Below are positions 2,596 to 36,907 of a stretch of 36,907 bases of DNA, piece by piece. Both the position numbers and the translations under genes were made by a program. The notes under the pieces are model-generated. The model had not been told where the DNA came from. It did not search any database and was given only the letters and a program-made list of their open reading frames with translations. Source of the stretch: a bacterium (GTDB lineage: Bacteria; UBP13; UBA5359); contig JAQUEL010000008.1 in assembly GCA_028685295.1 (NCBI GenBank), positions 1 through 36,907 of the forward strand, read 5' to 3'. Each line of letters opens with the position of its first letter. Position 1 is the stretch's first letter.

Positions 2596-2634
2596 AAGAT
2601 CATTGAGCAAACTGTAAGGTTTTCTTGCAAGGTA

Positions 2635-2662
2635 TTGACAAGTAGCTTTACGGGTGTATACT
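2635..2662 (+). promoter_or_regulatory. Sigma-70-type promoter of the LacI regulator gene
   Basis: A perfect -35 box TTGACA (2635-2640) is followed after 16 bases by TATACT (2657-2662). Transcription should begin near 2669, only a few bases before the palindrome at 2675-2692. No other comparably good promoter was found before 18947, so this one may drive the whole sugar cassette or just the regulator. Confidence 0.7.
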
Positions 2663-2674
2663 TAGGCTAAGAAC

Positions 2675-2692
2675 ATGCGTGACGTCACACAT
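2675..2692. promoter_or_regulatory. Candidate LacI-family operator
   Basis: ATGCGTGACGTCACACAT is an 18-bp palindrome with 8 of 9 base pairs matching and a central CpG, the usual form of LacI/GalR operators. The inner 10 bp, GTGACGTCAC, are perfect. It begins about six bases after the predicted transcription start, where a bound repressor would block its own promoter. It overlaps the alternative ATG start at 2675 of the regulator gene. Confidence 0.6.
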
Positions 2693-2722
2693 CTATTATC
2701 GGCCCGAAAGGATCATAGGCAA

Positions 2723-3787: not shown

Positions 3788-3830
3788 AAGGGAATTTTAT
3801 CGCAGTTAAATGTTGAAGGAGGGTGATGAA

Positions 3831-10168: not shown

Positions 10169-10197
10169 TGTTTGTTAACAAGGAGGGGGGCGCAAAG

Positions 10198-13702: not shown

Positions 13703-13703
13703 A

Positions 13704-15551: not shown

Positions 15552-15559
15552 GGTATCGT

Positions 15560-16504: not shown

Positions 16505-16532
16505 AAATAAGGAAATTTATGAGGTGAACCGT

Positions 16533-17780: not shown

Positions 17781-17788
17781 TATGAATT

Positions 17789-18781: not shown

Positions 18782-18800
18782 TATTTACTCGAATGTCGGG

Positions 18801-18878
18801 AGCTTAGGGGCCAGGTTTTGCGATTTGAAGCAAGGCATAGCAGAATAGCCGTATGGCCAAACCTGGGCTGGACGAGCT
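18801..18878. other. Compact foldable element (three-way junction) of unknown function
   Basis: CCAGGTTT (18811-18818) pairs perfectly with AAACCTGG (18859-18866). Inside, TTGC (18818-18821) pairs with GCAA (18830-18833), and directly after it GGCATA (18834-18839) pairs with TATGGCC (18852-18858) with one bulged G. The arms abut with no linkers. AGCT at 18801-18804 and 18875-18878 could extend the outer stem after an internal loop. No run of T follows, so a simple Rho-independent terminator is unlikely. It lies between the GH130 stop and the SpoIID promoter. It may be a structured RNA, a 3'-end processing signal or a small inverted-repeat element. Confidence 0.4.
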
Positions 18879-18946
18879 GTTTAAAGAAACGACAAGGAAT
18901 ACAAGGAATAGGGGGCGGAACTGTTATTTTGCAAATTGAGCCTCTT

Positions 18947-18975
18947 TTGTCATCTTTGGGGTATAGAGGTATAAT
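18947..18975 (+). promoter_or_regulatory. Sigma-70-type promoter of the SpoIID-domain gene
   Basis: TTGTCA (18947-18952) and a perfect TATAAT (18970-18975) are separated by 17 bases. Predicted transcription start is near 18982, which leaves a leader of about 38 bases before ATG 19020. It marks the beginning of a new transcription unit after the sugar cassette. Confidence 0.7.
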
Positions 18976-19019
18976 CTCTTGTATTGACCGGCAATGATGC
19001 TAAAGCGGAGATCGAACCG

Positions 19020-20510: not shown

Positions 20511-21259
20511 CTTTTGGCGGCACAGACAGCAGTGGCGGCAGCGGATTATCAGCAGATCAACGAGCGGTTAGAGATGGTGGCGGGTATCTGTTCGGTATAG
20601 TGACGGCGGTAACGGCTCAGGGGCCGGCAGGCGTGGCCTCGGTAATTCCTATATCTGCAGAAGGCGTACGGGATCAGGCTGAAGCTATTCTTAAGGAGGG
20701 CTTGCGTCCCGATGCAATAAAGTGCGGTATGCTGGTGAATGCTGCTGTTGTATCGACTGTGGCCGATATCATTGCCGAATACTCTTTATCAAATCTGGTG
20801 TTGGATCCGGTGATTTTATCGACTTCCGGACGATGCTTGCTGGACGGCGAGGGTATAAAGATGCTCAAACAAAGGCTTTTGCCTCTAACGACGCTGGTTA
20901 CTCCCAACATACCTGAGGCTGAATGGCTGACTGGAGTGCAGATCAGGAAAGAGGATGATATGCATCAGGTTATCTCCATTTTGATGAAGCACGGAGTGCA
21001 GGCAGTATTGCTCAAAGGCGGACATGCAACCGGCGACGAGGTAATGGATATTCTCTATGACGGCACCGGTTTTCAGCGCTATCTTCATCGGCGTCTGCCC
21101 GGCAATCCCCGAGGCACCGGCTGTACTCTGGCTTCAGCTGTGAGTGTCCGTCTGGCAGGGGGTATGGAGATGGCGACAGCGGTATTCCAAAGCTTGGACT
21201 ATATGCAGCAGGTTATATCCACTGCAGCAGATATAGGGGGAGTAACGGTTCTAACGTAA
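20486..21259 (+). CDS. thiD: Hydroxymethylpyrimidine/phosphomethylpyrimidine kinase
   Basis: A 257-residue ribokinase-fold enzyme that phosphorylates HMP and HMP phosphate in thiamine synthesis. Diagnostic blocks are FGGTDSSGGSGLSADQRAV at the N-terminus, AIKCGMLVNAAVV, VLDPVILSTSGRCLL and the anion hole/base RGTGCTLASAVSVRLAGG. The length is normal for ThiD. It starts at GTG 20486 with GAGGCGAAGA directly upstream, inside the end of the SpoIID gene, so the two are translationally linked. No other thiamine gene is nearby. A pyridoxal-kinase-like specificity cannot be excluded from sequence alone. Confidence 0.85.
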   Translation: MSGIPQVLAFGGTDSSGGSGLSADQRAVRDGGGYLFGIVTAVTAQGPAGVASVIPISAEGVRDQAEAILKEGLRPDAIKCGMLVNAAVVSTVADIIAEYSLSNLVLDPVILSTSGRCLLDGEGIKMLKQRLLPLTTLVTPNIPEAEWLTGVQIRKEDDMHQVISILMKHGVQAVLLKGGHATGDEVMDILYDGTGFQRYLHRRLPGNPRGTGCTLASAVSVRLAGGMEMATAVFQSLDYMQQVISTAADIGGVTVLT

Positions 21260-21285
21260 CGGCGGGTACGTATTATGCAAAGAAC

Positions 21286-21324
21286 GACTCTCATGTATAA
21301 TTCGGCAGGATAAGAGAGTCTTTT
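21286..21324 (+). terminator. Possible terminator after thiD
   Basis: GACTCTC (21286-21292) pairs perfectly with GAGAGTC (21314-21320), followed by TTTT. The 21-base loop is longer than usual and the T run is short, so this is weak as an intrinsic terminator. The loop also contains TATAAT (21296-21301), which may be a -10 box for the next gene. Confidence 0.35.
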
Positions 21325-21363
21325 GTTGAAATCTATCTTATAAAGGTAAAGGAGAAAGTTTTA

Positions 21364-22437
21364 GTGAGAGCAATGATATTGGCCGCCGGCATCGGATCAC
21401 GCCTGGATCCCCTGACCAGCGGCCTTCCCAAACCTATGGTTCCTATCGCCAATCGGCCGGTTATGGAGCATATTCTGAATCTTCTATCTGATCAGGGTGT
21501 GGACGAAGTTATAATAAACCTTCACTATCTGCAGGATAGTATTGAGGAGTATTTCGGAGATGGTTCTTCTCTGGGGATGAAGCTGATTTATTCTCGGGAA
21601 AAAAAGTTGATGGGCACGGCCGGCGGCTTGCGCCGGGTGGGAGATTTCTTTAACGATACCTTTATAGTCATAGGCGGCGATGATCTGACTGCCATGCCCG
21701 TATCAAAGGTAGTGGAGCATCATCGACAAAACGGGGCTCTGGCTACTATCGCCCTGTCGGAAGTGGAGGACCCTTCCAATTTCGGTATTGTGGTTATCGA
21801 TGACGATGGGCGCATTGAGCGTTTTCAGGAGAAACCGGAACCGGAGGAGGCTTTCAGCCGTCTGGCCAATACGGGAATTTACGTTTTTGAACCGGAGATA
21901 ATGGATTATATTCCGGAGAACGAGTTTTATGATTTTGGACGTCAGGTCTTTCCTGATCTATTGAAGCAAGGTGCGCCGTTTTACGGATTGGCGCTTAAGG
22001 ATTATTGGTGTGATGTCGGCACGCTCAGGCAGTACAGAGACGCCAATTACGATGTCCTGGGGGGCAGGTGCCCGGTAAATGGCTATGAAGGTATCTCTGG
22101 AAAGACTAAAGTCGCCGAAGGAGCCATTATTTCGGAACCGGTGATTTTGGGACCGGGAACAGTAGTGGAAACTGGAGCATTCATAGGTCCCGATACGGTT
22201 ATAGGTGCCGGCTGTCGGATAGCTTCCGGCGCCGTAATCAGCGCTTCCGTACTCTGGGAGAATTGCAATATTGAGGCGGAGGCCAGGCTTGACGGGTGTG
22301 TTCTGGGCCGGAACTGCACTGTAGGCCGGAGAGCCGTTATAGGCTCAATGGCTGTTTTGGGAGACGACTGCCTGGTAAATGCAGGAAACAGAGTGGGACC
22401 GGAATCCAGGGTGGCTGCCGGAACCGTAGTCAAATAG
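21364..22437 (+). CDS. Sugar-1-phosphate nucleotidyltransferase (GDP-mannose pyrophosphorylase-like)
   Basis: A 357-residue protein. GTG 21364 has AAAGGAG at 21348-21354 upstream. Residues 1-235 are an NTP_transferase domain: AMILAAGIGSRLDPLTSGLP, KPMVPIANRPVMEHIL, the GGDDLTA metal region, EKPEPEEA and NTGIYVFEPEI. From about 245 a left-handed beta-helix of hexapeptide repeats follows (GPGTVVETGAFIGPDTVIGA and on), as in mannose-1-phosphate guanylyltransferases and related NDP-sugar synthases. The exact sugar is not certain. GDP-mannose is attractive, since the GH130 enzyme 3 kb upstream should yield mannose 1-phosphate, but the genes are in different transcription units. Confidence 0.8.
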   Translation: MRAMILAAGIGSRLDPLTSGLPKPMVPIANRPVMEHILNLLSDQGVDEVIINLHYLQDSIEEYFGDGSSLGMKLIYSREKKLMGTAGGLRRVGDFFNDTFIVIGGDDLTAMPVSKVVEHHRQNGALATIALSEVEDPSNFGIVVIDDDGRIERFQEKPEPEEAFSRLANTGIYVFEPEIMDYIPENEFYDFGRQVFPDLLKQGAPFYGLALKDYWCDVGTLRQYRDANYDVLGGRCPVNGYEGISGKTKVAEGAIISEPVILGPGTVVETGAFIGPDTVIGAGCRIASGAVISASVLWENCNIEAEARLDGCVLGRNCTVGRRAVIGSMAVLGDDCLVNAGNRVGPESRVAAGTVVK

Positions 22438-22503
22438 CTTTTTAGGCTGAAGGAGGGTATTGAGGATTGCAATCATTCAGGCCGGTTTAAAAAGGTGGTA
22501 GTA

Positions 22504-22512
22504 TGATATAAT
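22504..22512 (+). promoter_or_regulatory. Extended -10 promoter of the SAM-cycle operon
   Basis: TGATATAAT (22504-22512) combines a perfect TATAAT with the TGn extension, and no convincing -35 box precedes it (TTTAAA at 22486-22491 is 15 bases away). The start of transcription would be near 22519, giving a leader of about 135 bases before the kinase gene. Confidence 0.55.
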
Positions 22513-22518
22513 ATATCC

Positions 22519-22653
22519 TGTTATTGAATAATTTACTCCTAAGGCAAGTAGATAGAGAGAGGCTTAAGGCATGTAGCCATGGCACAGGGTAGTAGTGCTT
22601 GAGCGTAAATTTCGTCAATCTTTAGCCTTCAGATTTATTTACGTGAGGTTGTT
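22519..22653 (+). promoter_or_regulatory. Structured 5' leader of the SAM-cycle operon, candidate riboswitch
   Basis: The leader can fold into a three-way junction. P1 is GCTTAAG (22562-22568) with CTTGAGC (22598-22604), seven pairs including one G-U. P2 is CATG (22570-22573) with CATG (22578-22581). P3 is CAC (22583-22585) with GTG (22595-22597). A second hairpin pairs GTAAAT (22605-22610) with ATTTAC (22637-22642), with AATC/GATT inside it, and ends two bases before the ribosome binding site GAGG (22645-22648). Its loop contains GCCTT (22625-22629), which could alternatively pair with AAGGC at 22566-22570 or 22541-22545, giving a switch or pseudoknot. I do not see the conserved core of the SAM-I riboswitch or of known SAH riboswitches. 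The function is inferred from position before kinase-ahcY-metK. Confidence 0.45.
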
Positions 22654-23589
22654 ATGTCGCTCCTGGTTATAGGCTCAATTGCTCTGGATACGGTACGGAC
22701 ACCATTCGGCATAGTAGAGGATGCCCTGGGAGGTGCCGCAGTGTATGCCTCCTGCGCCGCTTCTTTCTTTACCGATGTGGCTATCGTTGGTGTGGCCGGA
22801 AGGGATTTCCCCTCTCAGCATACGGAATTTCTTTTCTCTAGAAATATAGACCTTTCCGGTCTGGAGATAGCCGACGGGCAGACCTTTCGCTGGTCGGGAC
22901 GCTATGATTTCGATTTGAACCTGGCTCATACGCTGCAGACACAGCTTAACGTGTTTGCCGATTTCAGGCCCATACTGGGGCAGGAACAGCGTCAGGCCCC
23001 CTATGTGTTCCTGGCTAATATGGACCCGGAAATTCAGCTGCATATTCTGGATCAGTTGGAGAACCCGGAACTGATAGCCTGCGATACCATGAATTTCTGG
23101 ATAGACGGCAAACCGGAGGCTCTCAGGCAGGTTGTTTCAAGATCGGATATTCTGTTTATCAATGATGCCGAGGCTCGTCAGCTGTGTAATACTCCTTCTT
23201 TGATCAAAGCTGCCAGAGAATTGCATAATATGGGCCTGCGGGCAGTGGTAATTAAAAAGGGCGAGCACGGCTCGATGATGTTATGCGATGAAGGCTTCTT
23301 TGCTGCGCCCTCCTACCCTCTGGAGGAAGTCAGAGATCCCACCGGCGCCGGTGACAGCTTTGCCGGCGGGTTTATGGGATATATTGCTTCCGAGCATGAT
23401 TACGGCACAGATTCCCTGCGTTGTGCCGTTATTTGCGGCAGCGTAGTGGCCGCTTACAATGTCGAGGAATTCAGCCTGGATAGAATAAAGCGGCTGGATT
23501 GTAATGATATAGCCGTCCGTTTCAATGAGTTTAAGCACCTTTCCACCTTCGAATCTCCCGGTGCGCTGCTATCTGTTAGTCTGGAGTAA
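22654..23589 (+). CDS. PfkB-family kinase, probable adenosine kinase of the SAM cycle
   Basis: A 311-residue ribokinase-fold kinase. It begins SLLVIGSIALDTVRTPFG, followed by EDALGGAAVYASCAAS; near the C-terminus VRDPTGAGDSFAGGFMGYIA carries the anion hole and catalytic Asp. ATG 22654 has GAGG at 22645-22648. The next two genes are S-adenosylhomocysteine hydrolase and methionine adenosyltransferase. Removal of adenosine drives the hydrolase forward, so phosphorylation of adenosine to AMP is the simplest role. The same kinase-ahcY-metK neighbourhood occurs in several bacterial phyla. Sequence alone would also allow a sugar substrate. Confidence 0.8.
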   Translation: MSLLVIGSIALDTVRTPFGIVEDALGGAAVYASCAASFFTDVAIVGVAGRDFPSQHTEFLFSRNIDLSGLEIADGQTFRWSGRYDFDLNLAHTLQTQLNVFADFRPILGQEQRQAPYVFLANMDPEIQLHILDQLENPELIACDTMNFWIDGKPEALRQVVSRSDILFINDAEARQLCNTPSLIKAARELHNMGLRAVVIKKGEHGSMMLCDEGFFAAPSYPLEEVRDPTGAGDSFAGGFMGYIASEHDYGTDSLRCAVICGSVVAAYNVEEFSLDRIKRLDCNDIAVRFNEFKHLSTFESPGALLSVSLE

Positions 23590-24882
<1,293 letters not shown>

Positions 24883-24922
24883 TCAACAGAACCGGAACAC
24901 CTAAACAGGAGGCTTAAAGCAA

Positions 24923-26128
24923 ATGGATATATCATCTAAAGGTTGTTATCTCTTTACTTCCGAATCAGTAACGGAGGGCCATCCGGATAAAATGGCCGAT
25001 CAGATATCGGATACTGTTTTGGATGCAATTATAGCTAAGGATCCCTTGGCCAGAGTGGCCTGTGAGACCTTGCTGACCACCGGATTGGTAATGGTTGCCG
25101 GGGAAATTACCACCGGTTGCTATGTGGATATACCCGAGATTGTTCGGCGTACCATCGGCGAGATAGGCTATACCAGAGCCAAATATGGCTTTGATAATGA
25201 AACCTGTGGAGTTCTGGTATCCATCAAGGAGCAATCCACCGATATTGCCATGGGTGTAGATAAATCTTTTGAAGCCAAGGGCGGCGAGGTGGTGCATGAA
25301 GATCTGGAAGCTCTGGGGGCCGGGGATCAGGGGTTGATGTTCGGCTATGCCACCAATGAAACAGAAGAGCTGATGCCCATGCCCATCAGCCTGGCGCATA
25401 AGCTGGCTCAACGCCTGGCAGAGGTGCGTAAAGACGGCACTATGCCCTACTTGCGCCCGGACGGCAAATCCCAAATTACTATTCGTTATGAGAACCATCG
25501 TCCGGTAGAGATCGATTCCGTGCTCATAGCCGCTCAGCACTGTCCTAAGGAGAGCTGGGAGAAAATCCGGGATGACGTTATAGAGAACGTCATTAATCCA
25601 GTACTGCCGAAGGAAATGATCTCAAAGAGCATCAAATACTATATCAATCCTACAGGACGCTTTGTTATCGGCGGCCCGCAGGGCGATACCGGCCTGACCG
25701 GGCGAAAGATTATCATTGATACTTATGGCGGTATGGCCCGACACGGCGGCGGAGCCTTCTCCGGCAAGGACCCCACCAAGGTAGATCGTTCAGCCGGATA
25801 TGCCGCCCGCTGGGCTGCCAAGAATGTGGTGGCTGCCAGGCTGGCAGAACGCTGTGAAGTTCAACTGGCCTATGCCATCGGTATAGCCAGGCCTCTTTCC
25901 ATCATGGTAGATACCTTCGGCACCGGGGCCATAGATGATTCCCACATTGCCGCCCTGATAGAGAGCAACTTTGATTTGCGGCCGGGAATGATTATCAAAG
26001 AGCTGGACTTGAGACGCCCGATTTACAGGCAAACGGCAGCCTATGGGCACTTCGGCCGTCCCGACCTGGACCTGCCCTGGGAGCGTACCGACAGAGCCGC
26101 CGAATTGAGGCGACAGGCAGGGTTGTGA
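24923..26128 (+). CDS. metK: S-adenosylmethionine synthetase
   Basis: A 401-residue cytoplasmic enzyme that makes S-adenosylmethionine from methionine and ATP. Hallmarks are [20 protein letters not shown] at the N-terminus, the [12 protein letters not shown] signature, and the second signature [20 protein letters not shown]. Length and domain order are standard. ATG 24923 follows ACAGGAGG with normal spacing. The stop overlaps the comF start (GTGA), so comF is co-translated. Confidence 0.97.
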
Positions 26129-26835
26129 GCCTTGCGGAAATAATTGCCACACTATGGGGAGGGATTCTATCCCTCCTCTTCCCTTCCGTGTGCCTTTTAT
26201 GCGGGCGAGCTGGAGAGACATTATGCCGCAGTTGTTTGATGAAGCTGCCTCGGCTGGAAGGGATGCCCTGTCCCGGCTGCGGCTTGCCTGGCGACGGCAC
26301 ACTCTGTCCACATTGCCGGAAAGATAATCCGCCCTATTCTTCGGCATTGGCAGCGGCTCCTTACGCAGAACGCTGGCGGGAGCTTATTCATAAATTTAAA
26401 TACTGCAAGCATCCGGAGCTGGCCGGCCCGCTGGGACGCTATCTGGCTGAGTTTCTGGAAGATTATCTATCAGAAGCAAAGATCGATCTGGTTACCTCCG
26501 TGCCGTTGCACGCAGAACGTTTGCAAGAGCGCGGTTACAATCAGGCCGAACTACTGGCCCAAGCCCTCTGTACTATCAGTGGCAAGCTGCCGTATAAGCG
26601 TACTCTGACCAGAGTAAAGCCGTCCCTGCCGCAACATACCCTGAACAGGAAGGAACGGCACGCCAACCTCAGGCAGGCCTTCAGTCCATTGCCGGAAGCA
26701 TTGCAAGGCGGGGAAAGGGTTTTATTGGTAGACGACGTCATGACCACCGGCGCTACCATTCATGAGTGCTCCGCATGTCTGCTCAAGGCCGGGGCATCCG
26801 CAGTCTACGCGGCAACTCTGGCCAGGAAGTTATGA
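26125..26835 (+). CDS. comF: ComF-family protein (phosphoribosyltransferase-like)
   Basis: A 236-residue protein starting at GTG 26125, overlapping the metK stop by four bases. The N-terminus carries zinc-finger-like cysteine pairs (CLLCG, CRSC, then CPGCG and CPHC, within residues 22-68). The central [20 protein letters not shown] and the PRPP-binding loop [14 protein letters not shown] (about 193-206) are the ComF/ComFC signature. Members are needed for DNA uptake in competent bacteria, where ComFC acts with the ComFA helicase at the cytoplasmic face. Many genomes carry it without known competence. Here it closes the SAM-cycle transcription unit, with no other competence gene in view. Confidence 0.9.
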
Positions 26836-26956
26836 GATATCGTATATATCGTTAAGCTAGTGGCATGTTTTCTCAATCCGCCTTATTTTTGCCATGCGCG
26901 TATCCGACGTTCCATATTGCCGTCATCGGCCCCTTACCGCTGAGCCGTATAATTGC

Positions 26957-26984
26957 TTGACGGTCGGCAGGAATGTGTTATAAT
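26957..26984 (+). promoter_or_regulatory. Sigma-70-type promoter of the DeoR cassette
   Basis: TTGACG (26957-26962) and a perfect TATAAT (26979-26984) are separated by 16 bases. The transcription start is expected near 26991, essentially at the ATG of the DeoR gene. It is the only good promoter seen between comF and the right edge, so it probably drives all seven genes of the cassette. Confidence 0.75.
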
Positions 26985-26999
26985 GTTCGTTATGAACAT
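26983..26999. promoter_or_regulatory. Candidate operator overlapping the DeoR promoter
   Basis: ATGTTC (26983-26988) and GAACAT (26994-26999) form a perfect inverted repeat with a 5-base spacer. It overlaps the last two bases of the -10 box and covers the predicted transcription start, an ideal place for autorepression by the DeoR protein encoded immediately downstream. Confidence 0.55.
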
Positions 27000-27759
27000 A
27001 AACAATACATCGAACAACAAGGCAGTTAATAATGGTTTGCGTGATTTCAAGCAATTACGCCAGGATAAGATATTAGCTCTTCTCGATGAAATGGGGAAGG
27101 TGCATGTTAAAGCCCTGGCTGTAGAATTCAGCGTTGATCCTATCACTATCAGGCGAGATCTGGAAGAATTAGCGCTACAGAACCTGCTTATCAGGACACA
27201 CGGCGGTGCTGTCAAGACACGTTTGATAGATAGAGAGTTCAGCTATATAGAGAAAGAACAGAAGGATGTCGATCTTAAGACAAAGGTAGCAAAGAAGGCT
27301 GCAGCTTTGATAGAGAACGGTGATTCTGTTTTTTTTGATACAGGTACTACTGCCAGAGCTGCCTTTTTGGAATTACCCGCCGAAATATCGTTGACTATAG
27401 TTACTAATAATTTGGTGATAGTCATGGATAGCCTGTACCGGGATAATTACAGAATTATTGTTCCGGGAGGGGAATTGAACACTGTTTCACCCGATCTCTA
27501 CGGAGCTTTAACATTGAGCAATCTCAAGGATATTTATGTGAACAAGGCCTTTTTCGGTTGTGATGCCTTCGATAACGATAGTTTCTACACTGCAGATCAT
27601 AAATCGGCTGAAACAATCAAGGTGATGCATAAAAATTCATCTCAAAGTTTTCTTCTGGCCGACAGTGCAAAATACGGCAGCAAGGGGCTGGTCAGAGTTA
27701 TGAGCATGAAAGAGGTCTGCCTGATAACGGATGATATAAAGCTAAATAAACATTGTTAA
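26992..27759 (+). CDS. DeoR/GlpR-family transcriptional regulator
   Basis: A 255-residue repressor. The N-terminal DeoR helix-turn-helix is complete (RQDKILALLDEMGKVHVKAL, then FSVDPITIRRDLEELALQNL and RTHGGAV). The sugar-phosphate-sensing DeoRC domain follows, with its DTGTTARAAFLELP phosphate-binding motif (about 109-122) and IVTNNL. Start: the in-frame TTG at 26953 is upstream of the promoter's -35 region and can be dismissed. ATG 26992 lies at the predicted transcription start, so translation would be leaderless. A TTG near 27037 is a weaker alternative. The effector is probably a phosphorylated sugar made by the PfkB kinase downstream. Confidence 0.9.
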   Translation: MNINNTSNNKAVNNGLRDFKQLRQDKILALLDEMGKVHVKALAVEFSVDPITIRRDLEELALQNLLIRTHGGAVKTRLIDREFSYIEKEQKDVDLKTKVAKKAAALIENGDSVFFDTGTTARAAFLELPAEISLTIVTNNLVIVMDSLYRDNYRIIVPGGELNTVSPDLYGALTLSNLKDIYVNKAFFGCDAFDNDSFYTADHKSAETIKVMHKNSSQSFLLADSAKYGSKGLVRVMSMKEVCLITDDIKLNKHC

Positions 27760-27792
27760 CCGATAGATTTAATTATTGATGGAGGTCATCTC

Positions 27793-30129
27793 ATGCTGTT
27801 ACGCTATGATCATGATAAAGCTGCCTTCATTCTTGAAAAAGGCGGGGTATCGCTGTTCCAATGGCAAGTATCGCTTGAAGCCGATGGGGTGGAACGGTTT
27901 GGAAGGCACAGTGTGACGGAAACAAAGAAGGGCTTTCTCTGCCGGATAGATTTGGTAGAGGCCGGCCTTGAATGGGTGATTGATTTCGATACCAGTCCTG
28001 ATAATGGGATTGGTATCACTTCGGTAATCCGTAATAGCGGCGCTAAGCCGGCCAGCCTGGGCAGAGTCAATATATGCAAAGCGGCGGATATCGTAAACTT
28101 CGGCAAGCCCGAAGAGGATATCGTGCAATTGATGTTACCTTCAGGACAACACCTTCGAGACGTACAACTAATAAAATCTTCGGATGCTGATCGCGAAAGC
28201 AACATAAAAATGCTTCTTTTCAATCGCAGTCGTCAGCAAGCTATGTTGATAGGTTTTATATCATTCCAAAGTATGGCAACGAAAGTCATTTATGACTATG
28301 ACAATCTGGCGGGGATAAGAAATCTGACTGCGTACTGTGACCTGGCAGGTTTCCACCTGATTCCTGGAGAGAGGATCGAAACGGAGAAGTTCAATCTTGC
28401 CTTCAGCACTGATCCTTATCAATTGCTCGAAGATTGGGCTGATAATGTAGCTGACGTATACCATCCCAAATTTATAAGTAAGCCTGTACTCGGCTGGATC
28501 GGAGGGGCCTGGGTCCGTGGTAATGCGAAAGAGAGTACGGAAGCGATTGCCATTGGAAATGTTGATGCTGTCAATAAACGTCTTAAGGGTTTCGGATTTG
28601 AATACTGCTGGATAAGCATTGCCAATCTGGAGGGAGGAAATCCCGGTGATTGGCTGGCCTGGAATAGGAATAATTTACCATCTGGTAGCGAGCAGCTAAT
28701 CAAAGAACTTCGCCGCAGAAATTTTAAACTCGGTCTTTGGTGTGGTCCGTTTTACATAAGTTCGGCTTTGAAGCGGTTGATAAAAGAGCTTAAGGCTAAG
28801 GGAGCACTGCTTAAAGGCTCTGACGGAGAGCTGATAGTGGCTTATCACAGGTGGGCGCATGGTGATGCCGGCAAGCTTCCTTTGGAGAAGCGCCCTGAGC
28901 TTTATGCCCTGGATCCAAGTCACCCGGATAACCTGAAGTTTATCCGTAAGGTTTTCGAGACATATCGGAAATGGGGAGTACGTTACTATATGCTGGATTT
29001 CCTTGAGGCGGGAGCAGGTAATATCAGCCGCTTTCCCTATTCAAAGCATTGCGATGAATTGAAGATTGCCGGACCGGAGATCTACACTGCTTTTATGCAG
29101 GAGATCCGCCAAGCTGCCGGAGAGGAGACCTTTATCCTGGGCAGCACAGGGCCGACGATTCATAATGCCGGACTGTTGGATGCCGTTAGAACCGGCAATG
29201 ATTTTGGAGAAGGCCGGCAGATCAGACCAAACTCTTTTTTTTACCCTGCCAGTTATGTAATCAATAATATGGAGTTCTGGACCGGGCCGCAGTGGGCTCT
29301 GACCAATCAGGCATCCTCTTATTACACCCATGGAAAGCTGTATCAGAACGATGCCGGTAATGTGCTGACGGTAGACAAGCCGATTCCTTTGTCGCATGCC
29401 CGAATCAACGCCACTATTCATGCCTTTACAGGCAGTTCCAGTATGCTCGGCGACGATATTCGTCATATTTCAGAAGGACGGCTTGAACTGATTAAGAAGA
29501 CGCTGCCGAGAAGCCCTATAGCGGCTTTCCCAGTGGATCTTTTCGATCGTTGCAATAATACCTGTCCATCTATTTTCCATCGTAAGATAGAGAAGCCCTG
29601 GGGCACTTATGATGTAGTAGCCTGTTATAACTTCAGTCAAAAGTATAAAGAGGTGGAATTGGATTTGCATAGATTGAAGCTTGATTCGGCAAAGCAGTAT
29701 CTGCTTTGGGAATTCTGGAACGAAGAGTATATGGGGCGAATTTCCGAAACATTGCACCTTTCCCTTCCTCCTCTTACGGTAGGGGTATATCGATTGGCCG
29801 AGTATATAGACCGTCCTGTAATTTTAGCCACGGACATGCACTTGTTAATGGGTGAGATGGAACTGGCGCAAGTAGATTGGAACGAGAAGAATATGGTTCT
29901 GAGCGGCCGGGCCATCCGGCCTGCTGGAGAAGAGGGTAGTCTTTATATTCATGTGCCCGATAACCTGTGTGTCAAAAATATAGAGGACTGCTACATCAGT
30001 AAGGATGCTCGGGATAATTCGCTGGTGGTTCGCATAAAACTTAATTTTACAGATGAGAGCAGAGAATGGCGGATTGAATTTGAGCAACTATCTGAAGTTT
30101 TGGATATGAATAAACTTAATTTGGCATGA
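27793..30129 (+). CDS. GH36-like (alpha-galactosidase-type) glycoside hydrolase
   Basis: A 778-residue protein without signal peptide, so intracellular. ATG 27793 follows GGAGG. The first 230 residues are a beta-sandwich. The TIM barrel starts near GWIGGAWVRGNAKES and includes FKLGLWCGPFYISSALKRLI. The nucleophile candidate is D402 in YYMLDFLEAG and the acid/base candidate D470 in AVRTGNDFGEGR, both placed as in GH36/clan GH-D enzymes. A C-terminal beta domain ends with the expected carbohydrate-associated fold. It presumably removes an alpha-linked galactose or related sugar. It begins the catabolic part of the DeoR cassette, 33 bases after the regulator. Confidence 0.75.
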   Translation: MLLRYDHDKAAFILEKGGVSLFQWQVSLEADGVERFGRHSVTETKKGFLCRIDLVEAGLEWVIDFDTSPDNGIGITSVIRNSGAKPASLGRVNICKAADIVNFGKPEEDIVQLMLPSGQHLRDVQLIKSSDADRESNIKMLLFNRSRQQAMLIGFISFQSMATKVIYDYDNLAGIRNLTAYCDLAGFHLIPGERIETEKFNLAFSTDPYQLLEDWADNVADVYHPKFISKPVLGWIGGAWVRGNAKESTEAIAIGNVDAVNKRLKGFGFEYCWISIANLEGGNPGDWLAWNRNNLPSGSEQLIKELRRRNFKLGLWCGPFYISSALKRLIKELKAKGALLKGSDGELIVAYHRWAHGDAGKLPLEKRPELYALDPSHPDNLKFIRKVFETYRKWGVRYYMLDFLEAGAGNISRFPYSKHCDELKIAGPEIYTAFMQEIRQAAGEETFILGSTGPTIHNAGLLDAVRTGNDFGEGRQIRPNSFFYPASYVINNMEFWTGPQWALTNQASSYYTHGKLYQNDAGNVLTVDKPIPLSHARINATIHAFTGSSSMLGDDIRHISEGRLELIKKTLPRSPIAAFPVDLFDRCNNTCPSIFHRKIEKPWGTYDVVACYNFSQKYKEVELDLHRLKLDSAKQYLLWEFWNEEYMGRISETLHLSLPPLTVGVYRLAEYIDRPVILATDMHLLMGEMELAQVDWNEKNMVLSGRAIRPAGEEGSLYIHVPDNLCVKNIEDCYISKDARDNSLVVRIKLNFTDESREWRIEFEQLSEVLDMNKLNLA

Positions 30130-30184
30130 GACGACGGTTATAGCCGTCCTTATCTCCTAGATGAACTGAAGGAAGGGCGAGATT

Positions 30185-31543
30185 ATGCAAACTCCACCGA
30201 TACGAGTCTGCTTCGTCGGCTTCGGCGAGATCAATACGCCGCGCGATATCATCGAAGAAAAGTGTCTGTCAGCTGAAAAACGTTTGGCCGGACTGGGTTT
30301 GGAAGTAGTGCGCACCGACCCGGTCAGCGATGACCCAGCCGGCCGGGAGGTGGAGCGGGCTAGGCTGGATTTGGCAGGCCAGGAGTTTGATCTATTGATA
30401 ATCTGCATTGCCGGCTGGATACCGTCACATACGGTGATGCGCTTGATAGATGGCTGGTCGCACAAACCTATGCTGCTTTGGGGCCTGAGCGGCTGGCAGC
30501 AGGGAGAACGCTTTGTGACCACAGCTGCACAGGCAGGCACAACCGCTTTGCGTCGGACTATGCAGGATATGGGGATTCGGTTTAAATACGTCGTAGATTA
30601 TATGGACCGGGAGCCGGACGATCGGCCTATTCTCTCCTTCGCCCGGGCGGCTCAGGCCGCTGCCCGCCTGCGTCATGCCCGAGTGGGTACGATGGGTTGC
30701 CGGGATATGAATCTTTACGCCACGTTGCATGATGGCATTAGTTTACGTCGAAGTATCGGACCGGAGATAGAGAGCTTTGAAATGCTGGAGATGGTGCAAA
30801 GAGGACAGAGCCTGGACGTCGCCGATGTAAAGGCAACGGTGCAACGTATGAAAGAGAGCTGGCAGTTTGTTCAGCCGGCAGATGAAGCTAGCCTGATCAA
30901 AGCTGCAGAGCTCTATCTGGCTGTCAAAAGCAAAGCTGCCGAGCGTGGTTATGAAGCCCTTTCGCTGATAGACGTTGACGGCGTTAAAAAGCTACTCGGC
31001 TTTCCACCTGCTCCGGTCTTTATGCTGCTGAGCGAGGACGGGTTGTACACCATACCGGAGAACGATGTTCCAGGGGCCATTACTCAGTTGATGACTGGAT
31101 ACGTTACCGGCCAGATTGCTGCTTACATGGAGATCTATGAATTCAGTCGTCGAGGCGTGCTGATCGGCGTGCCGGATTATATCCCAGCTGAGATAACTGA
31201 CGGCCCGATCAGGGTATTGCCTACCGCTTTCGGTCATCTGGGTCAGGGCTTGTTGAACATCTCTCAGGTGCGTACCGGACGAGTTACCCTAGCCCGCCTG
31301 CTTTGTACAAATGGCGCCTACAGTTTACATCTGGCCACAGGCATTGCAAAGCGGCCGCAATCCTGGGAGGAGGCCGGTTGGGCGCCTCCGGCACCACAAT
31401 TACCCAGTTTACAGGTAGAACTGGACAGCGCCGTTGAGGAGTTTGTTCAGCAGGTTGCAGGGCAACATTATATCCTTTCTTATGGTGACAACTGTAGAGA
31501 ACTGACAGATCTTTGCCGCTTACTTAACGTTGAGGTGCTGTGA
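30185..31543 (+). CDS. L-fucose isomerase-like protein, divergent metal site
   Basis: A 452-residue protein with the FucI/AraA-type layout: Rossmann-like N-terminal half (IRVCFVGFGEINTPRDIIEE, VGTMGCRDMNLYATLHDG) and an isomerase-like C-terminal half. IPENDVPGAITQLMTGYVTG aligns with the metal-Glu helix. The following ligand region reads MEIYEFSRRGVLIGVPDYIP instead of the usual Asp and His-x-Gly, and the terminal GQHYILSYGDNC replaces HQHF. A metal-dependent isomerase reaction is therefore doubtful; it may bind a sugar or catalyse a different step. AAGGAAGG precedes ATG 30185. The gene is a distant paralog of the one at 12257, in the matching operon position after a glycosidase. The next gene overlaps its stop. 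Confidence 0.7.
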   Translation: MQTPPIRVCFVGFGEINTPRDIIEEKCLSAEKRLAGLGLEVVRTDPVSDDPAGREVERARLDLAGQEFDLLIICIAGWIPSHTVMRLIDGWSHKPMLLWGLSGWQQGERFVTTAAQAGTTALRRTMQDMGIRFKYVVDYMDREPDDRPILSFARAAQAAARLRHARVGTMGCRDMNLYATLHDGISLRRSIGPEIESFEMLEMVQRGQSLDVADVKATVQRMKESWQFVQPADEASLIKAAELYLAVKSKAAERGYEALSLIDVDGVKKLLGFPPAPVFMLLSEDGLYTIPENDVPGAITQLMTGYVTGQIAAYMEIYEFSRRGVLIGVPDYIPAEITDGPIRVLPTAFGHLGQGLLNISQVRTGRVTLARLLCTNGAYSLHLATGIAKRPQSWEEAGWAPPAPQLPSLQVELDSAVEEFVQQVAGQHYILSYGDNCRELTDLCRLLNVEVL

Positions 31544-32760
31544 TGAAAACTAGCGACGGCCTGGTAAATATGGCAAACGCTATTCTTCCCGAAAAGCTTA
31601 TATCTTATGACGTTACGGTGGCCGGCTATATCAGTGTTGATCTGACGCCGGCTTGGCATGAGCGGCTTTGCTTTTCCTCCTTCAGTGAGCTGCTGCAGCC
31701 AGGACACCTTATTGAAATGGCTGAAATGGAGATAACGCCGGGAGGTGCTGTAGCCAATACCGGCCTGGCTCTGCAGCGCTTCAGGCGTGTCGTTTACTTG
31801 AATGGTTTGGTAGGCTATGACCTATTAGGAGATTTTATCATCCGGCATTTACAACGACAAGGCGTTGCCGAAGGTATTAGGCAGACTGACCGGGCTGCCA
31901 CTGCCTACGGAGTAGTTATAGCCCCTCCCGGGCTGGATAGGATCTTTCTTGAACACGTTGGCTGTAACGCTGTCTTCGGCACTGAAGATATTGATTGGCT
32001 GGCTGTAGAGAAAAGCCGTATCTTCCACTTCGGTTATCCACCGCTGATGCCGTGCTTATATTCCGATGGCGGAATCGAACTGAGCTCTATCTTCCGGCGG
32101 GTGCAGGAGGTAGAAACGATTGTCTCTCTGGATATGACTCTGCCGGATGCCGGCAGCCCGGCCGGACGGATTGACTGGCCTGCATTTATGGAACAGGTGT
32201 TGCCGGCCGTGGATATCTTCGTGCCGAGCATCGAAGAACTTCTTTATACCATGAGGCCGGACCGTTACGCGCAATTACAGGCTGATTACGGCAGCCACGA
32301 TATTCTGGAAGCCATACCCTTAAGCTGGTATAGCGAATTAGGAGATAAGATTATCGGCTTGGGGGTAAAAGTGCTGATGATAACAGCTGGATCGCGAGGG
32401 GCCTATCTGCAAACAGGAGATATAGATAATTGGAAGGCCGCTGCCAAACTGAAACTAAAAAGCGGCAACTGGAGCCGGCGACGCCTGTGGGCATCGGCCA
32501 TGCCGGTAGATCTGCGCCGCCAAATCAACGCCACTGGAGCCGGAGACTGTGCCGTAGCCGGGCTGCTGGCCGGACTGCTTGAAGGGATGCGGATAGAAGA
32601 AGCTGCTGGCTGTGCCATGCTGGCTGGTCGGGATAATCTCTATGGACTCGACGCTCTTAGCGGTCTGCCGGACTGGCCGGGAATAATCGCTGAATTAGAG
32701 GCTGTCAAAGGTATTTTTGTATTCGAAACAGAGAAAGATTTCGGGAAGGAAGAGTACTAA
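31543..32760 (+). CDS. PfkB-family sugar kinase
   Basis: A 405-residue ribokinase-type kinase. ATG 31543 overlaps the previous stop (TGATG) and has GAGGTG five bases upstream; a GTG at 31540 is the alternative. The motif TPGGAVANTGLALQRF near residue 67 and the C-terminal INATGAGDCAVAGLLAGLLE with the catalytic Asp are clear. At 405 residues it is longer than typical ribokinases (about 310). The extra sequence is at the N-terminus and around residues 240-320 (IPLSWYSELGDKIIGLG, KLKLKSGNWSRRRLW). It probably phosphorylates the monosaccharide produced in this cassette, and that product could be the DeoR effector. Substrate is not inferable. Confidence 0.85.
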   Translation: MKTSDGLVNMANAILPEKLISYDVTVAGYISVDLTPAWHERLCFSSFSELLQPGHLIEMAEMEITPGGAVANTGLALQRFRRVVYLNGLVGYDLLGDFIIRHLQRQGVAEGIRQTDRAATAYGVVIAPPGLDRIFLEHVGCNAVFGTEDIDWLAVEKSRIFHFGYPPLMPCLYSDGGIELSSIFRRVQEVETIVSLDMTLPDAGSPAGRIDWPAFMEQVLPAVDIFVPSIEELLYTMRPDRYAQLQADYGSHDILEAIPLSWYSELGDKIIGLGVKVLMITAGSRGAYLQTGDIDNWKAAAKLKLKSGNWSRRRLWASAMPVDLRRQINATGAGDCAVAGLLAGLLEGMRIEEAAGCAMLAGRDNLYGLDALSGLPDWPGIIAELEAVKGIFVFETEKDFGKEEY

Positions 32761-32762
32761 TT

Positions 32763-34130
32763 ATGTCGAAAAGATTGCCATGGTGGAAAGAGGGATATGA
32801 TTTCTCACAACTGCCGAAGATGAAAACGGGAAGTCCCGGGCCGGAGTCACGGCGCTTGCACGCCAGGGCTGCTGGTATCATCAAGGGGCTATCGTCGCAG
32901 GTTAAATTACATCCGGTATGCTTCAAAGAAGGCTTCGGCGTCGTTCTGACCGACGTGGACGGCAATCGTTATATTGATTTTTCTTCCGGCATATATGTAA
33001 CTACGCTGGGACATTGCCATCCCAAAATTTCCGAAGCGGTGGCGCGGGCGGCTCGAACTATGATGAATTGTCACGACTTTACTACTCCGGTGAAGGTTGA
33101 ATTACTGGAAAAGATGGTGCGAATTCTGCCGGAAGGCATCAACGGTATCCAGCTTTATGATTCCGGCGCTACCGCTGTGGAAGCGGCGTTACGGGCTGCC
33201 AGGGCTTATACCGGCAAGCATGAATTTCTTGGCTTTATGATGGATTTTCATGGCAAAACCGGGCATGCCGTCAGTTTGGCTAAAATGAACAGCGCCAATG
33301 GGGCAGGTAGAGCGCAAGGCTTTTACATGGTACCCAAGCCTTATCCTTATCGCCCGCTATTCAAGAGAACGGATGGCAGCATAGATACAGATGCTTACAT
33401 TGATTACTATGAATATTTTCTGGCCAATGCCACTACAGGGCAGGTGGCAGCTTTTATTGCCGAACCCATTCAGGGATGGGGCGGTTCGGTGATTCCACCG
33501 GATGACTTTTATTCTAAGCTTAAAAAGTTCTGTCAAAAGCATGATATGTTGCTTATAGCTGATGAAGTACTCACTGGTATGGGTCGTACCGGCAAGTATC
33601 TAGCCATGGAACATTGGGATGTGACGGCTGATATCAGCACCTTGGGTAAGGGCTTTGGCAACGGTTTTCCGGTAACGGCCATGGTAGCCGATGAGAGGAT
33701 TAAGGATGCCTTCGAGAAGATCTCCGCCTCTACCAGCTATGGCGGCAACCCCATGGCTTGTGCCGCTGCCCTGGCTTCCATTGAGGTGATAGAAGAAGAG
33801 TGCCTGTTGGAGAACGCCCTCAGGCTGGAGGATTACTTTATCAAGCGAATGGAGAAGATGAAGAGAGAACATAAGATAATAGGCGATGTCAGAGCCAAAG
33901 GATGTCTGCTGGGCATAGAGATGGTCAGAGATCAGCAGAGCAAAGAGCCCTTTGATGAAGCGGGAAAGATGGTCTATGCCAAAGCCTTTAGAAAAGGACT
34001 GGCCTGGGTGCCGGCCGGGCATATCCTGAGGCTGTCGCCGTCAATCATTATGGATAAAGAGGTTGCCGCCAAAGGTATGGATATAGTGGAAGAAGCCATC
34101 TATGAAACAGAGAAGGAATTAGGCTATTAA
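32763..34130 (+). CDS. Class III PLP-dependent aminotransferase
   Basis: A 455-residue pyridoxal-phosphate enzyme. Visible landmarks are GNRYIDFSSGIYVTTLGHCH, the cofactor-phosphate region YDSGATAVEAALRAARAYTG, and IAEPIQGWGG. LLIADEVLTGMGRTGK carries the PLP-binding Asp, and the Schiff-base lysine is K296 in STLGKGFGNGFPV. Relatives include 4-aminobutyrate, ornithine and dialkylglycine enzymes. In an otherwise sugar-related operon, a keto-sugar or keto-cyclitol, or an amino donor produced from it, is the likely substrate. ATG 32763 lies two bases after the kinase stop and no strong ribosome binding site is seen, so it is probably translated by coupling. Confidence 0.9.
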   Translation: MSKRLPWWKEGYDFSQLPKMKTGSPGPESRRLHARAAGIIKGLSSQVKLHPVCFKEGFGVVLTDVDGNRYIDFSSGIYVTTLGHCHPKISEAVARAARTMMNCHDFTTPVKVELLEKMVRILPEGINGIQLYDSGATAVEAALRAARAYTGKHEFLGFMMDFHGKTGHAVSLAKMNSANGAGRAQGFYMVPKPYPYRPLFKRTDGSIDTDAYIDYYEYFLANATTGQVAAFIAEPIQGWGGSVIPPDDFYSKLKKFCQKHDMLLIADEVLTGMGRTGKYLAMEHWDVTADISTLGKGFGNGFPVTAMVADERIKDAFEKISASTSYGGNPMACAAALASIEVIEEECLLENALRLEDYFIKRMEKMKREHKIIGDVRAKGCLLGIEMVRDQQSKEPFDEAGKMVYAKAFRKGLAWVPAGHILRLSPSIIMDKEVAAKGMDIVEEAIYETEKELGY

Positions 34131-34131
34131 T

Positions 34132-35262
34132 ATGAAGATATATAATGTTGGCCTGATAGGAGCCGGATTCATGGGACGTACTCATGCCTGGTGCTGGAAT
34201 TCATTGCCCTACTTCTATGCCGGACGTGACTACAAATGCTGTCTTAAGGGCATCTGCACCTCAAGTCTGGAAGCAGCCCGGAATGCCCGGGAAGAACTAG
34301 GCTTTATGCGAGCCTACGCCGATTTTCAGACTATGATAGACGACCCAGGGATCGATATTATTGACATTGCCTTGCCCAACAACGTACATAAAGAGGCTCT
34401 CCAAGCTGCTGCTAAAGCCGGCAAAGTTGTCTATTGTGACAAACCGCTGACCGGGAATCTGGAAGAAGCCATACAACTGGAGAAAGAATTGAAAGACCCT
34501 GACAGCCTAGGCCAGATGGCGTTGCAGTATCGCTTTTATCCGGCTACTATGCGTGCCAGGCAACTGGTAGAGGCTGACGAGATAGGCAAGATAATCAGCT
34601 TTAGGGCCGCCTATCTTCACTCCGGCAATGTAGCCGAGGGCAAGCCGATGCACTGGAAAGATACCAGGGCCGCCGGCGGAGGCGTGCTCTGCGATATGGG
34701 CACTCATATTATCGATCTTCTGACTTGGCTGTGCAATGCTCCATTATCCCGGATATATGCTCTACAGAAGACCCTGTATGCCAATCGTCCTTCCCATAGA
34801 GATCCAGCGGTTATGGCTCGGCAGGATACCGATGACATGACTCTTATGGCTGTCATGCTGGATGGCGGCGCTATTGGGAGCATCGAAGCTTCCAAGATAG
34901 CTACCGGCTGTCAGGACGAACTTCGTTTTGAGATCCACGGCAGCCGGGGAGCACTGCGCTTCAATCTGATGGAACCAAACTATCTCGATTTCTTCAGTTC
35001 TTCCGACCCAGAGGCTCCGCTGGGAGGGCTTTCCGGCTTCAAGAGGATACATTGCGTGCAAAGATATGAATCTCCAGCTCTCTTTCCCGGCTCCAAATTC
35101 TCCATCGGCTGGCTACGGGGCCATTTGCATTGCCTCTATAGCTTTATCTCTGCCCATCATGTTGAGCAACCCTTCCAGCCATCCATTAAGCGCGGTATAG
35201 AACTGGAGAAGATGATAGCTGCAGTGGAGAAGAGCGTTGCTGATAACAAAGAAGGAATTTAA
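34132..35262 (+). CDS. Gfo/Idh/MocA-family oxidoreductase
   Basis: A 376-residue NAD(P)-dependent dehydrogenase. The Rossmann start YNVGLIGAGFMGRTHAW binds the cofactor, YCDKPLTGNLEEA contains the catalytic K104, and GGGVLCDMGTHIIDLLTWL holds the His/Asp substrate pair typical for inositol and hexose dehydrogenases. It starts one base after the aminotransferase stop, so the two are tightly coupled. Oxidation of a sugar or cyclitol hydroxyl to a ketone followed by transamination (or the reverse) is a coherent pair of steps. Direction and substrate are inferred only from neighbourhood. Confidence 0.9.
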   Translation: MKIYNVGLIGAGFMGRTHAWCWNSLPYFYAGRDYKCCLKGICTSSLEAARNAREELGFMRAYADFQTMIDDPGIDIIDIALPNNVHKEALQAAAKAGKVVYCDKPLTGNLEEAIQLEKELKDPDSLGQMALQYRFYPATMRARQLVEADEIGKIISFRAAYLHSGNVAEGKPMHWKDTRAAGGGVLCDMGTHIIDLLTWLCNAPLSRIYALQKTLYANRPSHRDPAVMARQDTDDMTLMAVMLDGGAIGSIEASKIATGCQDELRFEIHGSRGALRFNLMEPNYLDFFSSSDPEAPLGGLSGFKRIHCVQRYESPALFPGSKFSIGWLRGHLHCLYSFISAHHVEQPFQPSIKRGIELEKMIAAVEKSVADNKEGI

Positions 35263-35282
35263 TAGCTGAAAGGAGGAAGGAT

Positions 35283-36764
35283 ATGCATGAAAATAGATTG
35301 TTGATTGGATGGGGCAGAGCGGATATAACGCCGGATAAGCCTGTATTGATCTCCGGGCAGTTTCATGCTCGGGTTTCCGAGGGAGTAGCCGATGCTATTA
35401 CTGCAACCGTGTTGGTTTTGCAGTTGGAGAGAGAACATTTGGTGATGGTGAGCTGTGATTGCGTCTGTATCCCTGATGTTCTGCGTGATGATGTTCGCTT
35501 GCGTCTAGCTGCGATCCACCCTGATATAGATCCGATGAAGGTTGTTCTTCATGCTACACATACGCATACCGGCCCTGAGTTTCGCGTTGAATGTCCCTTT
35601 AGCGAAACCGGTATCGATCTCGACGTTATGCCGATTGAGGAATATGTTCACTTTGCTACTGAACGCATTGTTGAAGCGGCGGCTAAAGCCTGGGAAACCC
35701 GGGTGCCGGGTAAGATCGCCTTTGGGCAGGGCTATGCCGTCATCGGGCATAACCGCCGCTGGGTGGATGTTGATGGCAACTCCACAATGTATGGCAATAC
35801 CGATACCTCTCTATTCAGCCATATCGAGGGTTACGAAGATCATAGCATCGGCGTTTTGGCCACGCGCAACCTCAAAGGTGTGTTGACCGGACTGGTAATT
35901 AATGTTCCTTGTCCATCTCAGGTAAGCGAGGAAGAGTATCTTTTAAGTGCCGATTACTGGTGCGAGACCCGGGCGGAACTGCGACACCGCTTCGGGGAGG
36001 ACTTATTTATTCTGGCCCAATGCAGCGCGGCCGGTGATCAGTCGCCTCATATTATTTTCAACAGGCTGGCAGAAGAACGCATGCTTAGGCTGAAAAAATG
36101 TACCCTTCGTCAAGAGATCGCTCTTCGCATTGCTGATGCTGTTACAACTGTGCTAAATTGTTTAGAGACCGAGTTTGACGATGCTCCCGTTTTGATGCAC
36201 CATGTAGAAATGGTGGACCTGGCATTAAATGTATTGACTAAAAGCGACGCTGAATTTGCCAGAATGGAGGCCGATAAGTTTAGTAAACAATATCGGAAAG
36301 CGAAGAAGGAATTAGAGATCAATCCTGAAATACGAGAAAAGCCGCGCTGGTATTTTGCCGTTACCTACGCTTATAGGCGTATGAAATGGTATCAGGGTGT
36401 AGTTGAAAGGTTCGAAGCACAGAAGCGCCAAAAAAAGCTACCGGTGGAGATCCATGTTATTCGATTAGGGGAGGTTGTTTTTACAACAACTCCTTTTGAA
36501 TATTATCTTGATTTCGGCATCTATATCAAGGCTCGTAGCCAAGCAGTTCAGACATTTCTTATACAGCTTGCCGGTCAAGGTACGTATGTTCCCAGCCAGC
36601 GTTCGGTATTGGGTGGTGGCTATGGGTCTGTTCCGGCCAGCAATCATGTCGGACCGGAGGGAGGAAGACAGCTTGCACAGACAATTGCGATGGTTATTAG
36701 AAACCTTTGGTCGGACAATAAAGATTATAGTGTACCCCAAAATTCGGACAGTGAGTCAAGGTGA
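35283..36764 (+). CDS. Neutral-ceramidase-like metallohydrolase, 3' end replaced by IS sequence
   Basis: A 493-residue protein from ATG 35283 (AAAGGAGGAAGG upstream). It has no signal peptide. It resembles the N-terminal catalytic domain of neutral/alkaline ceramidases (PF04734): GWGRADITPDKPVLISGQFH, then VVLHATHTHTGPE with a zinc His, and QCSAAGDQSPH. The second zinc-His block (usually ACHPT) reads NVPCPSQVSEEE, so the metal site differs and a ceramide substrate is unlikely. Family relatives in saccharolytic bacteria may cleave N-acyl or similar bonds. The last ten codons (VPQNSDSESR) lie in the terminal repeat of the IS3-type element at 36731, so the natural C-terminus is probably lost or altered. 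Confidence 0.75.
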   Translation: MHENRLLIGWGRADITPDKPVLISGQFHARVSEGVADAITATVLVLQLEREHLVMVSCDCVCIPDVLRDDVRLRLAAIHPDIDPMKVVLHATHTHTGPEFRVECPFSETGIDLDVMPIEEYVHFATERIVEAAAKAWETRVPGKIAFGQGYAVIGHNRRWVDVDGNSTMYGNTDTSLFSHIEGYEDHSIGVLATRNLKGVLTGLVINVPCPSQVSEEEYLLSADYWCETRAELRHRFGEDLFILAQCSAAGDQSPHIIFNRLAEERMLRLKKCTLRQEIALRIADAVTTVLNCLETEFDDAPVLMHHVEMVDLALNVLTKSDAEFARMEADKFSKQYRKAKKELEINPEIREKPRWYFAVTYAYRRMKWYQGVVERFEAQKRQKKLPVEIHVIRLGEVVFTTTPFEYYLDFGIYIKARSQAVQTFLIQLAGQGTYVPSQRSVLGGGYGSVPASNHVGPEGGRQLAQTIAMVIRNLWSDNKDYSVPQNSDSESR

Positions 36765-36907
36765 TGTAGAGGTCCATAATATATTGGACTGTTGTAATTC
36801 CAAGCCGGCAGAAGCAAGCAGATAGCGCAGTGGAGGCTGCTTGTCCGGCAAGCCCCGATGGGGCTTCTCCGTATTATACCACAGCAGGTAATCCATCAGG
36901 CCGTAGT
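36731..36907 (-). mobile_element. IS3-type insertion sequence, one end
   Basis: The element enters from the right edge. TGTACCCCAAAATTCGGACA at 36731-36750 (reading outward, TGTCCGAATTTTGGGGTACA) has the look of an IS terminal inverted repeat, lies five bases from the transposase stop, and interrupts the end of the ceramidase-like gene. The exact boundary and target duplication cannot be set with only one end visible. Confidence 0.6.
36756..36907 (-). CDS. IS3-family transposase (integrase core), C-terminal fragment
   Basis: Minus-strand frame, open from the right edge to a TGA at 36758-36756, 50 codons. It reads YGLMDYLLWYNTEKPHRGLP and continues to LELQQSNILWTSTSP. The LxDYLLWYNTxxPHxxL block is characteristic of the end of the rve integrase core of IS3-type OrfB transposases, after the third catalytic acid. 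The rest lies outside the window. Confidence 0.8.
   Translation of the reverse strand, partial: YGLMDYLLWYNTEKPHRGLPDKQPPLRYLLASAGLELQQSNILWTSTSP

Follow-up and report, generated by a model that had tools for sequence, protein, structure and literature searches.

A seven-gene operon that may serve catabolism of an amine-bearing sugar, with an isomerase, kinase and ceramidase-fold core in distant bacterial phyla

Introduction

What sugar, if any, would be handled by an operon that joins an isomerase and a kinase to an aminotransferase, a dehydrogenase and a ceramidase-like protein? The question is raised by seven genes at positions 26992-36764 of a 36,907-nucleotide stretch of DNA, referred to here as the window (contig JAQUEL010000008.1, assembly GCA_028685295.1, from a bacterium of GTDB lineage UBP13). 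The open reading frames (ORFs) are complete and all lie on the plus strand. They encode, in operon order, a DeoR-family regulator, a GH36-like glycosidase, an isomerase (ISO), a PfkB kinase, a class-III aminotransferase (AT), a Gfo/Idh/MocA dehydrogenase (GFO) and a neutral-ceramidase-fold protein (CER), with intergenic gaps of 33, 55, -4, 2, 1 and 20 bases. A preliminary description of the window placed seven genes behind one promoter, with gaps from overlap to 55 bases; the ORFs, the gaps and a promoter-like site bear this out.

The favoured reading, with a probability of about 0.4, is that DeoR controls an operon for breaking down a sugar that bears an amine and is probably N-acylated, the amine standing most plausibly on a secondary carbon such as C3. 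With the same reserve, the operon may belong to a phylum-spanning pathway for amine-bearing sugars, in which a CER with a CPxQxxE-like motif acts on a sugar substrate and AT plus GFO, or YjbQ/TIM/SIS, serve as interchangeable modules.

Conserved core

The conserved core consists of ISO, a sugar kinase and CER; AT is present in nearly all non-clostridial carriers. A profile search for ISO in GTDB genomes gives 80 loci, from Planctomycetota, Bacteroidota, Clostridia, Spirochaetota, Armatimonadota, WS1, Verrucomicrobiota, Kiritimatiellae, TA06 and others. A PfkB or FGGY kinase directly adjoins ISO in 63 of 82 loci. CER is found in 58-60 of the 82 (54 within 5 kb), at a median distance of 1.55 kb. 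Tested in 39 ISO genomes from outside Clostridia, AT is present in 36. Loci of the PfkB type have AT and often a DhnA/LacD-type aldolase; loci of the FGGY type in Clostridia have TIM, SIS, YjbQ and FSA-type aldolase genes. Complete versions of the system are DeoR-AT-GFO-CER-symporter-ISO-PfkB-aldolase (genome G392) and sugar porter-ISO-PfkB-AT-CER-aldolase-SusC (Chitinophagaceae). Cultured carriers of orthologs are Parapedobacter indicus, with an ISO-PfkB-AT-CER-SusC locus, and Agriterribacter humi.

The association of ISO, CER and AT also holds closer to the window. Among 386 genomes sampled around its own, ISO occurs in 4 (three genera), AT in 8 and CER of the window's type in 8; all 4 ISO genomes carry both of the others (ISO-AT P 8e-8; genus level 3e-6). 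With the co-occurrence across phyla, this leads us to reject the idea that ordinary sugar genes came together by chance. Neither AT nor ISO was found in plasmid records.

Conservation of the full set, for which a survey had been proposed, holds in part: the core recurs in distant phyla, and the seven-gene set does not. GH36 adjoins ISO only in G002, of the same genus, and at L104, in one clostridial metagenome-assembled genome (MAG). Like GH36, GFO of the window's type, present also in the sister species G001, is accessory. The seven-gene unit is thus a local variant of a more widespread system. The core is known from gut Clostridia, Bacteroidota, Planctomycetota, Spirochaetota, Armatimonadota and candidate phyla, a distribution which suggests that the substrate is probably common. 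Several orphan families become jointly testable: an isomerase outside Pfam, an AT more than 60% identical across phyla, a CER whose metal site is putatively altered, and also YjbQ, by way of the alternative module.

Enzymes of the operon

The family calls are confirmed: DeoR, PfkB, Aminotran_3 and GFO pass Pfam, the GH36-like protein is recovered by phmmer, and the isomerase-like and ceramidase-like proteins by AlphaFold2 models and Foldseek.

ISO (30185-31543) is an aldose-ketose isomerase of the AraA/FucI fold, assigned by model, Foldseek, profile search and alignment; it has no Pfam hit. The model (pLDDT 91) matches L-arabinose isomerase with a TM-score of 0.83 and L-fucose isomerase with about 0.8. 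Candidate metal ligands are E292, E316 and H428, invariant in an alignment of 48 orthologs and matched by alignment and spacing to the metal ligands of FucI/AraA. ISO therefore has the fold and the metal-binding Glu/Asp and His of this type of isomerase, but at about 16% identity it forms a separate family, adjoining a kinase. An ISO paralog, 26% identical, lies at 12230-13702 in a second sugar locus upstream. The PfkB-family kinase (31540-32760; Pfam PfkB) retains the GAGD motif and catalytic D336. The GH36-like glycosidase (27793-30129) has no Pfam family hit; it is related to T. maritima GalA (1zy9, phmmer E 1.1e-14), and its D402 and D470 align with the Asp residues that are nucleophile and acid/base in GalA, a clan GH-D enzyme.

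AT (32763-34130) belongs to class III by Pfam, NCBIfam and alignment (PF00202, 339.7 bits) and keeps the pyridoxal phosphate (PLP) lysine, K296. It passes no NCBIfam equivalog cut-off of the class (GABA, acetylornithine, others), the best score being 367 against 552 bits. Orthologs across phyla are 60-67% identical. GFO (34132-35262), assigned by Pfam, NCBIfam and homology, is of a levoglucosan / scyllo-inositol dehydrogenase-like subfamily. It is nearest to levoglucosan and scyllo-inositol/L-glucose dehydrogenases, all under NCBIfam cut-offs. The levoglucosan dehydrogenase model gives 221 bits (cut-off 650), more than iolG, and the genomic context differs from that of levoglucosan dehydrogenase.

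Where AT is located away from ISO, its neighbour is often a GFO of one particular subfamily; DeoR, a kinase and another isomerase frequently accompany the two, and CER sometimes does. AT and this usual GFO are adjacent in many AT loci. Across 50 ISO genomes, 12 have both, 8 AT alone, 3 this GFO alone and 27 neither (P 3e-4). The dehydrogenase-transaminase pair described earlier is therefore a recurring one, although the window's GFO belongs to another subfamily than the usual partner. UroD-like proteins and several extra GFO dehydrogenases occur near AT or ISO in several phyla (L051, L139, L142, L145, L173, L178).

Ceramidase-fold protein

CER (35283-36764) scores 24.3 bits against PF04734, under the gathering score of 32.1. 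Its model (pLDDT 93) has the neutral-ceramidase fold, and Foldseek matches neutral ceramidases only (2zxc, E 2e-22, TM-score 0.64). In 73 homologs HxH, a GDxP-like motif, Glu406, Tyr435 and Tyr447 are nearly always kept. In 58 of the 73, that of the window included, CPxQxxE-like residues replace the CHP-type motif of the second zinc His (H204). Of the zinc ligands of neutral ceramidase, two His, one Glu and one Tyr, the window's protein consequently keeps all but the second His. On alignment, the CPxQxxE-like proteins are a distinct subfamily, with a metal site that is apparently changed. Fold, HxH, Glu and Tyr motifs and the GDxP-like motif are shared with neutral ceramidases of P. aeruginosa (2zws/2zxc) and human (4wgk); length (493 against 630-670 residues), identity (16%) and the replaced His204 set CER apart. 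Some CERs have signal-peptide-like N-termini; those in tight ISO operons, including the window's, mostly have none.

A second, paralogous cluster in the same genome brings together a CER of the window's subfamily, a DegT sugar aminotransferase, GFO, a GH84-like hexosaminidase and a sugar-binding protein. The cluster is represented at L026 (contig C9 of the window's genome, 2-6626) and L199 (3988-12159) by a DegT aminotransferase, CER, three xylose-isomerase-like TIM barrels and GFO; the GH84-like and sugar-binding proteins lie near L026, and in G001 the paralogous cluster sits at the site of the cassette. A family of 660-750 amino acids with no Pfam hit stands beside CER or ISO at L070, L091, L097, L108 and L128; it is perhaps another glycosidase.

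Proposed pathway

All activities are inferred, as are the substrate and its amine, the sequence of reactions, what CER catalyses and which way AT and GFO run. The GH36-like enzyme would release the sugar from an alpha-glycoside. CER would take off an acyl group or cleave an analogous bond. AT would then transfer the amine onto a 2-oxo acid. GFO would reduce the ketone of the resulting keto sugar, yielding a neutral aldose. ISO would convert the aldose to a ketose, PfkB would phosphorylate it, and an aldolase (DhnA/LacD type in relatives, encoded outside the window operon) would split the ketose phosphate into glycolytic trioses.

Catabolism, one of two directions suggested earlier, is indicated by the adjacency of ISO and kinase, by aldolases in the complete relatives, and by sugar transporters, SusC neighbours and DeoR/AraC regulators. 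An N-acyl amino sugar is supported by the CER/DegT/GFO/GH84-like cluster, an independent case of CER standing with a sugar aminotransferase, a GFO and a hexosaminidase-like enzyme. In the biosynthesis of 3-amino sugars a dehydrogenase and a PLP aminotransferase likewise act together (NtdC/NtdA; PMC8788734). In the present system the AT-GFO pair would run toward deamination.

Several observations count against this reading. No aldolase is present inside the window operon. The window's genome is without the usual AT-partner GFO subfamily, and the levoglucosan-dehydrogenase-like GFO fills that slot. Class-III aminotransferases act more often on terminal amines. Amidase activity of CER is doubtful because the canonical second zinc-ligand His is lost; amide cleavage as suggested in the preliminary description is unsupported in that form and uncertain, one zinc ligand of true ceramidase being replaced in this subfamily. 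At 17 ISO loci in Clostridia, YjbQ/TIM/SIS accompanies CER or its trunk genes while the genome has no AT, so that either the amine step is not universal or both modules act downstream of ISO.

The two modules exclude each other. AT is present in 41 ISO genomes, 0 of which have YjbQ/TIM/SIS beside ISO; the module occurs in 17 of 30 genomes without AT (P 1e-8). Within Clostridia the figures are 0 of 5 with AT and 17 of 27 without (P 0.015). Neither P value takes common descent into account, and incomplete MAGs are numerous among the genomes. The clostridial module, YjbQ-TIM-SIS-FGGY kinase-ISO-FSA-CER, is seen at L063, L064, L071, L073, L074, L079, L093 and others, never in a genome with AT. Through this module the orphan YjbQ family may acquire a role in metabolism and would, if the proposal is right, be placed in a metabolic context.

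Alternative explanations

This mutual exclusion is also what alternative modules would show in catabolism of an uncommon neutral sugar (for example an L-sugar, deoxysugar or heptose). The trunk would then consist of ISO, the kinase and an aldolase, with CER acting as an esterase, a lactonase or some other hydrolase; AT-GFO and YjbQ-TIM-SIS would be alternative means of processing a C3/C4 product of the aldolase. The TIM and SIS families usually use phosphorylated sugars, and the metal site of CER departs from that of amidase ceramidases, both in keeping with such a route. An aminotransferase would be an odd choice for aldehyde disposal in fermenters, and the parallel CER-DegT-GFO-GH84 cluster would be left unexplained; this explanation is rather unlikely. 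A pathway of the sulfoglycolysis kind, for sulfoquinovose or another C6-modified glucose, follows the same scheme, in which an isomerase and a PfkB kinase precede a LacD/FSA-type aldolase; sulfo-EMP and sulfo-TAL have an isomerase and a PfkB kinase in common with the system, along with a class-I aldolase or FSA-type transaldolase, and the sulfoquinovose isomerase SftI, distantly like ISO, is its best NCBIfam match. The match is 46.7 bits against an equivalog cut-off of 700, the cassette has another glycosidase and no sulfoquinovosidase, and AT and CER are foreign to sulfoglycolysis, which makes it the least probable of the explanations considered.

Inositol or amino-cyclitol catabolism, with GFO oxidising inositol and AT interconverting inosose and inosamine, would suit a GFO that resembles scyllo-inositol and inositol dehydrogenases, and the inositol (iol) and rhizopine (moc) systems share a Gfo/Idh/MocA dehydrogenase with the cassette. 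ISO, class-III AT and CER are foreign to those systems, known inositol routes give ISO and a sugar kinase no role, and GFO scores higher on the levoglucosan dehydrogenase model than on iolG. IolB (PF04962) was not found in the window's genome (99.99% complete), G002 or G263. The standard inositol route is therefore incomplete in the window's genome and is ruled out; the amino-cyclitol reading offered in the preliminary description is weakened, and the explanation as a whole is improbable. Equally improbable is the other direction suggested earlier, in which the operon would build an amino sugar or an azasugar-like product; little speaks for it. Dehydrogenase-aminotransferase pairs do build 3-amino sugars in known pathways (PMC8788734), but the cassette has no nucleotide-sugar or glycosyltransferase genes, and relatives have sugar importers, SusC, DeoR/AraC regulators and aldolases. 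The kanosamine operon (ntdCAB/kabCAB) likewise has a dehydrogenase and a PLP aminotransferase acting on sugar C3; it differs in being biosynthetic and in having no ISO, PfkB or CER. GnnA/GnnB and WbpB/WbpE are also pairs of dehydrogenase and PLP aminotransferase acting on sugar C3, and the aminotransferases of the kanosamine, Gnn and Wbp types are of families other than class III.

The L-glucose/L-galactose cluster of Luteolibacter was considered as a match and rejected, the gene set not being contained there. In agreement with the preliminary description, which knew of no such pathway, the literature gave no described pathway or substrate for the gene set; most subscription journals lay outside the coverage, and novelty is unproven. 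Literature on ceramidase-like proteins in sugar clusters, on YjbQ with sugar catabolism and on T. maritima TM0413 (IolN) gave nothing usable.

Promoter, operator and boundaries

A sigma-70-like promoter, TTGACG-16-TATAAT, lies at 26957-26984 on the plus strand (11/12 consensus matches, the top site of the region), with TG preceding the -10 hexamer. Seven bases lie between this site and the ATG at 26992, a spacing which implies either a leaderless message or a DeoR start slightly further in. The DeoR-family regulator (26992-27759) is identified by Pfam DeoRC and HTH_DeoR. The inverted repeat ATGTTC-N5-GAACAT (26983-26999), the sole such site in the window, overlaps the end of the -10 hexamer and the DeoR start codon; judged by its sequence and position, it is a plausible candidate for an autoregulatory operator. 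A similar palindrome lies between DeoR and AT at L062, and another precedes GFO-AT in G002. A cross-phylum DeoR operator, at which these hinted, was rejected, the palindrome being no commoner over all AT loci than in control windows.

On the left, nucleotide synteny with G001 (88-91% over 7406-26837) ends 2 bases past the preceding ComF-like gene, and an AraC-DegT-CER-TIM-barrel-GFO cluster takes the place of the cassette. On the right, the 3' end of a multi-copy, rve_3-like transposase (36764-36907, minus strand; translation, 8 matches in the own genome, weak Pfam hit) abuts the CER stop codon. This flanking element is outside the pathway; its genomic copies include the ends of contigs C117, C73 and C32, and the conserved part of CER is intact despite the abutting insertion sequence (IS) fragment. 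Since synteny stops at the left and the IS abuts at the right, the cassette is regarded as a discrete, lineage-variable unit. The G+C content of its genes is 0.41-0.55, close to the surroundings.

Other genes of the window

The second sugar locus, at 5903-18781, encodes a 1421-residue LamG protein, a DUF6259 protein, a ROK protein, a sugar-binding protein and GH130, and has about 88% DNA identity with G001. Positions 1129-5806 encode a pectate-lyase-like protein, a LacI-type regulator, a DUF1559 pseudopilin-like protein and a DUF5009 membrane protein.

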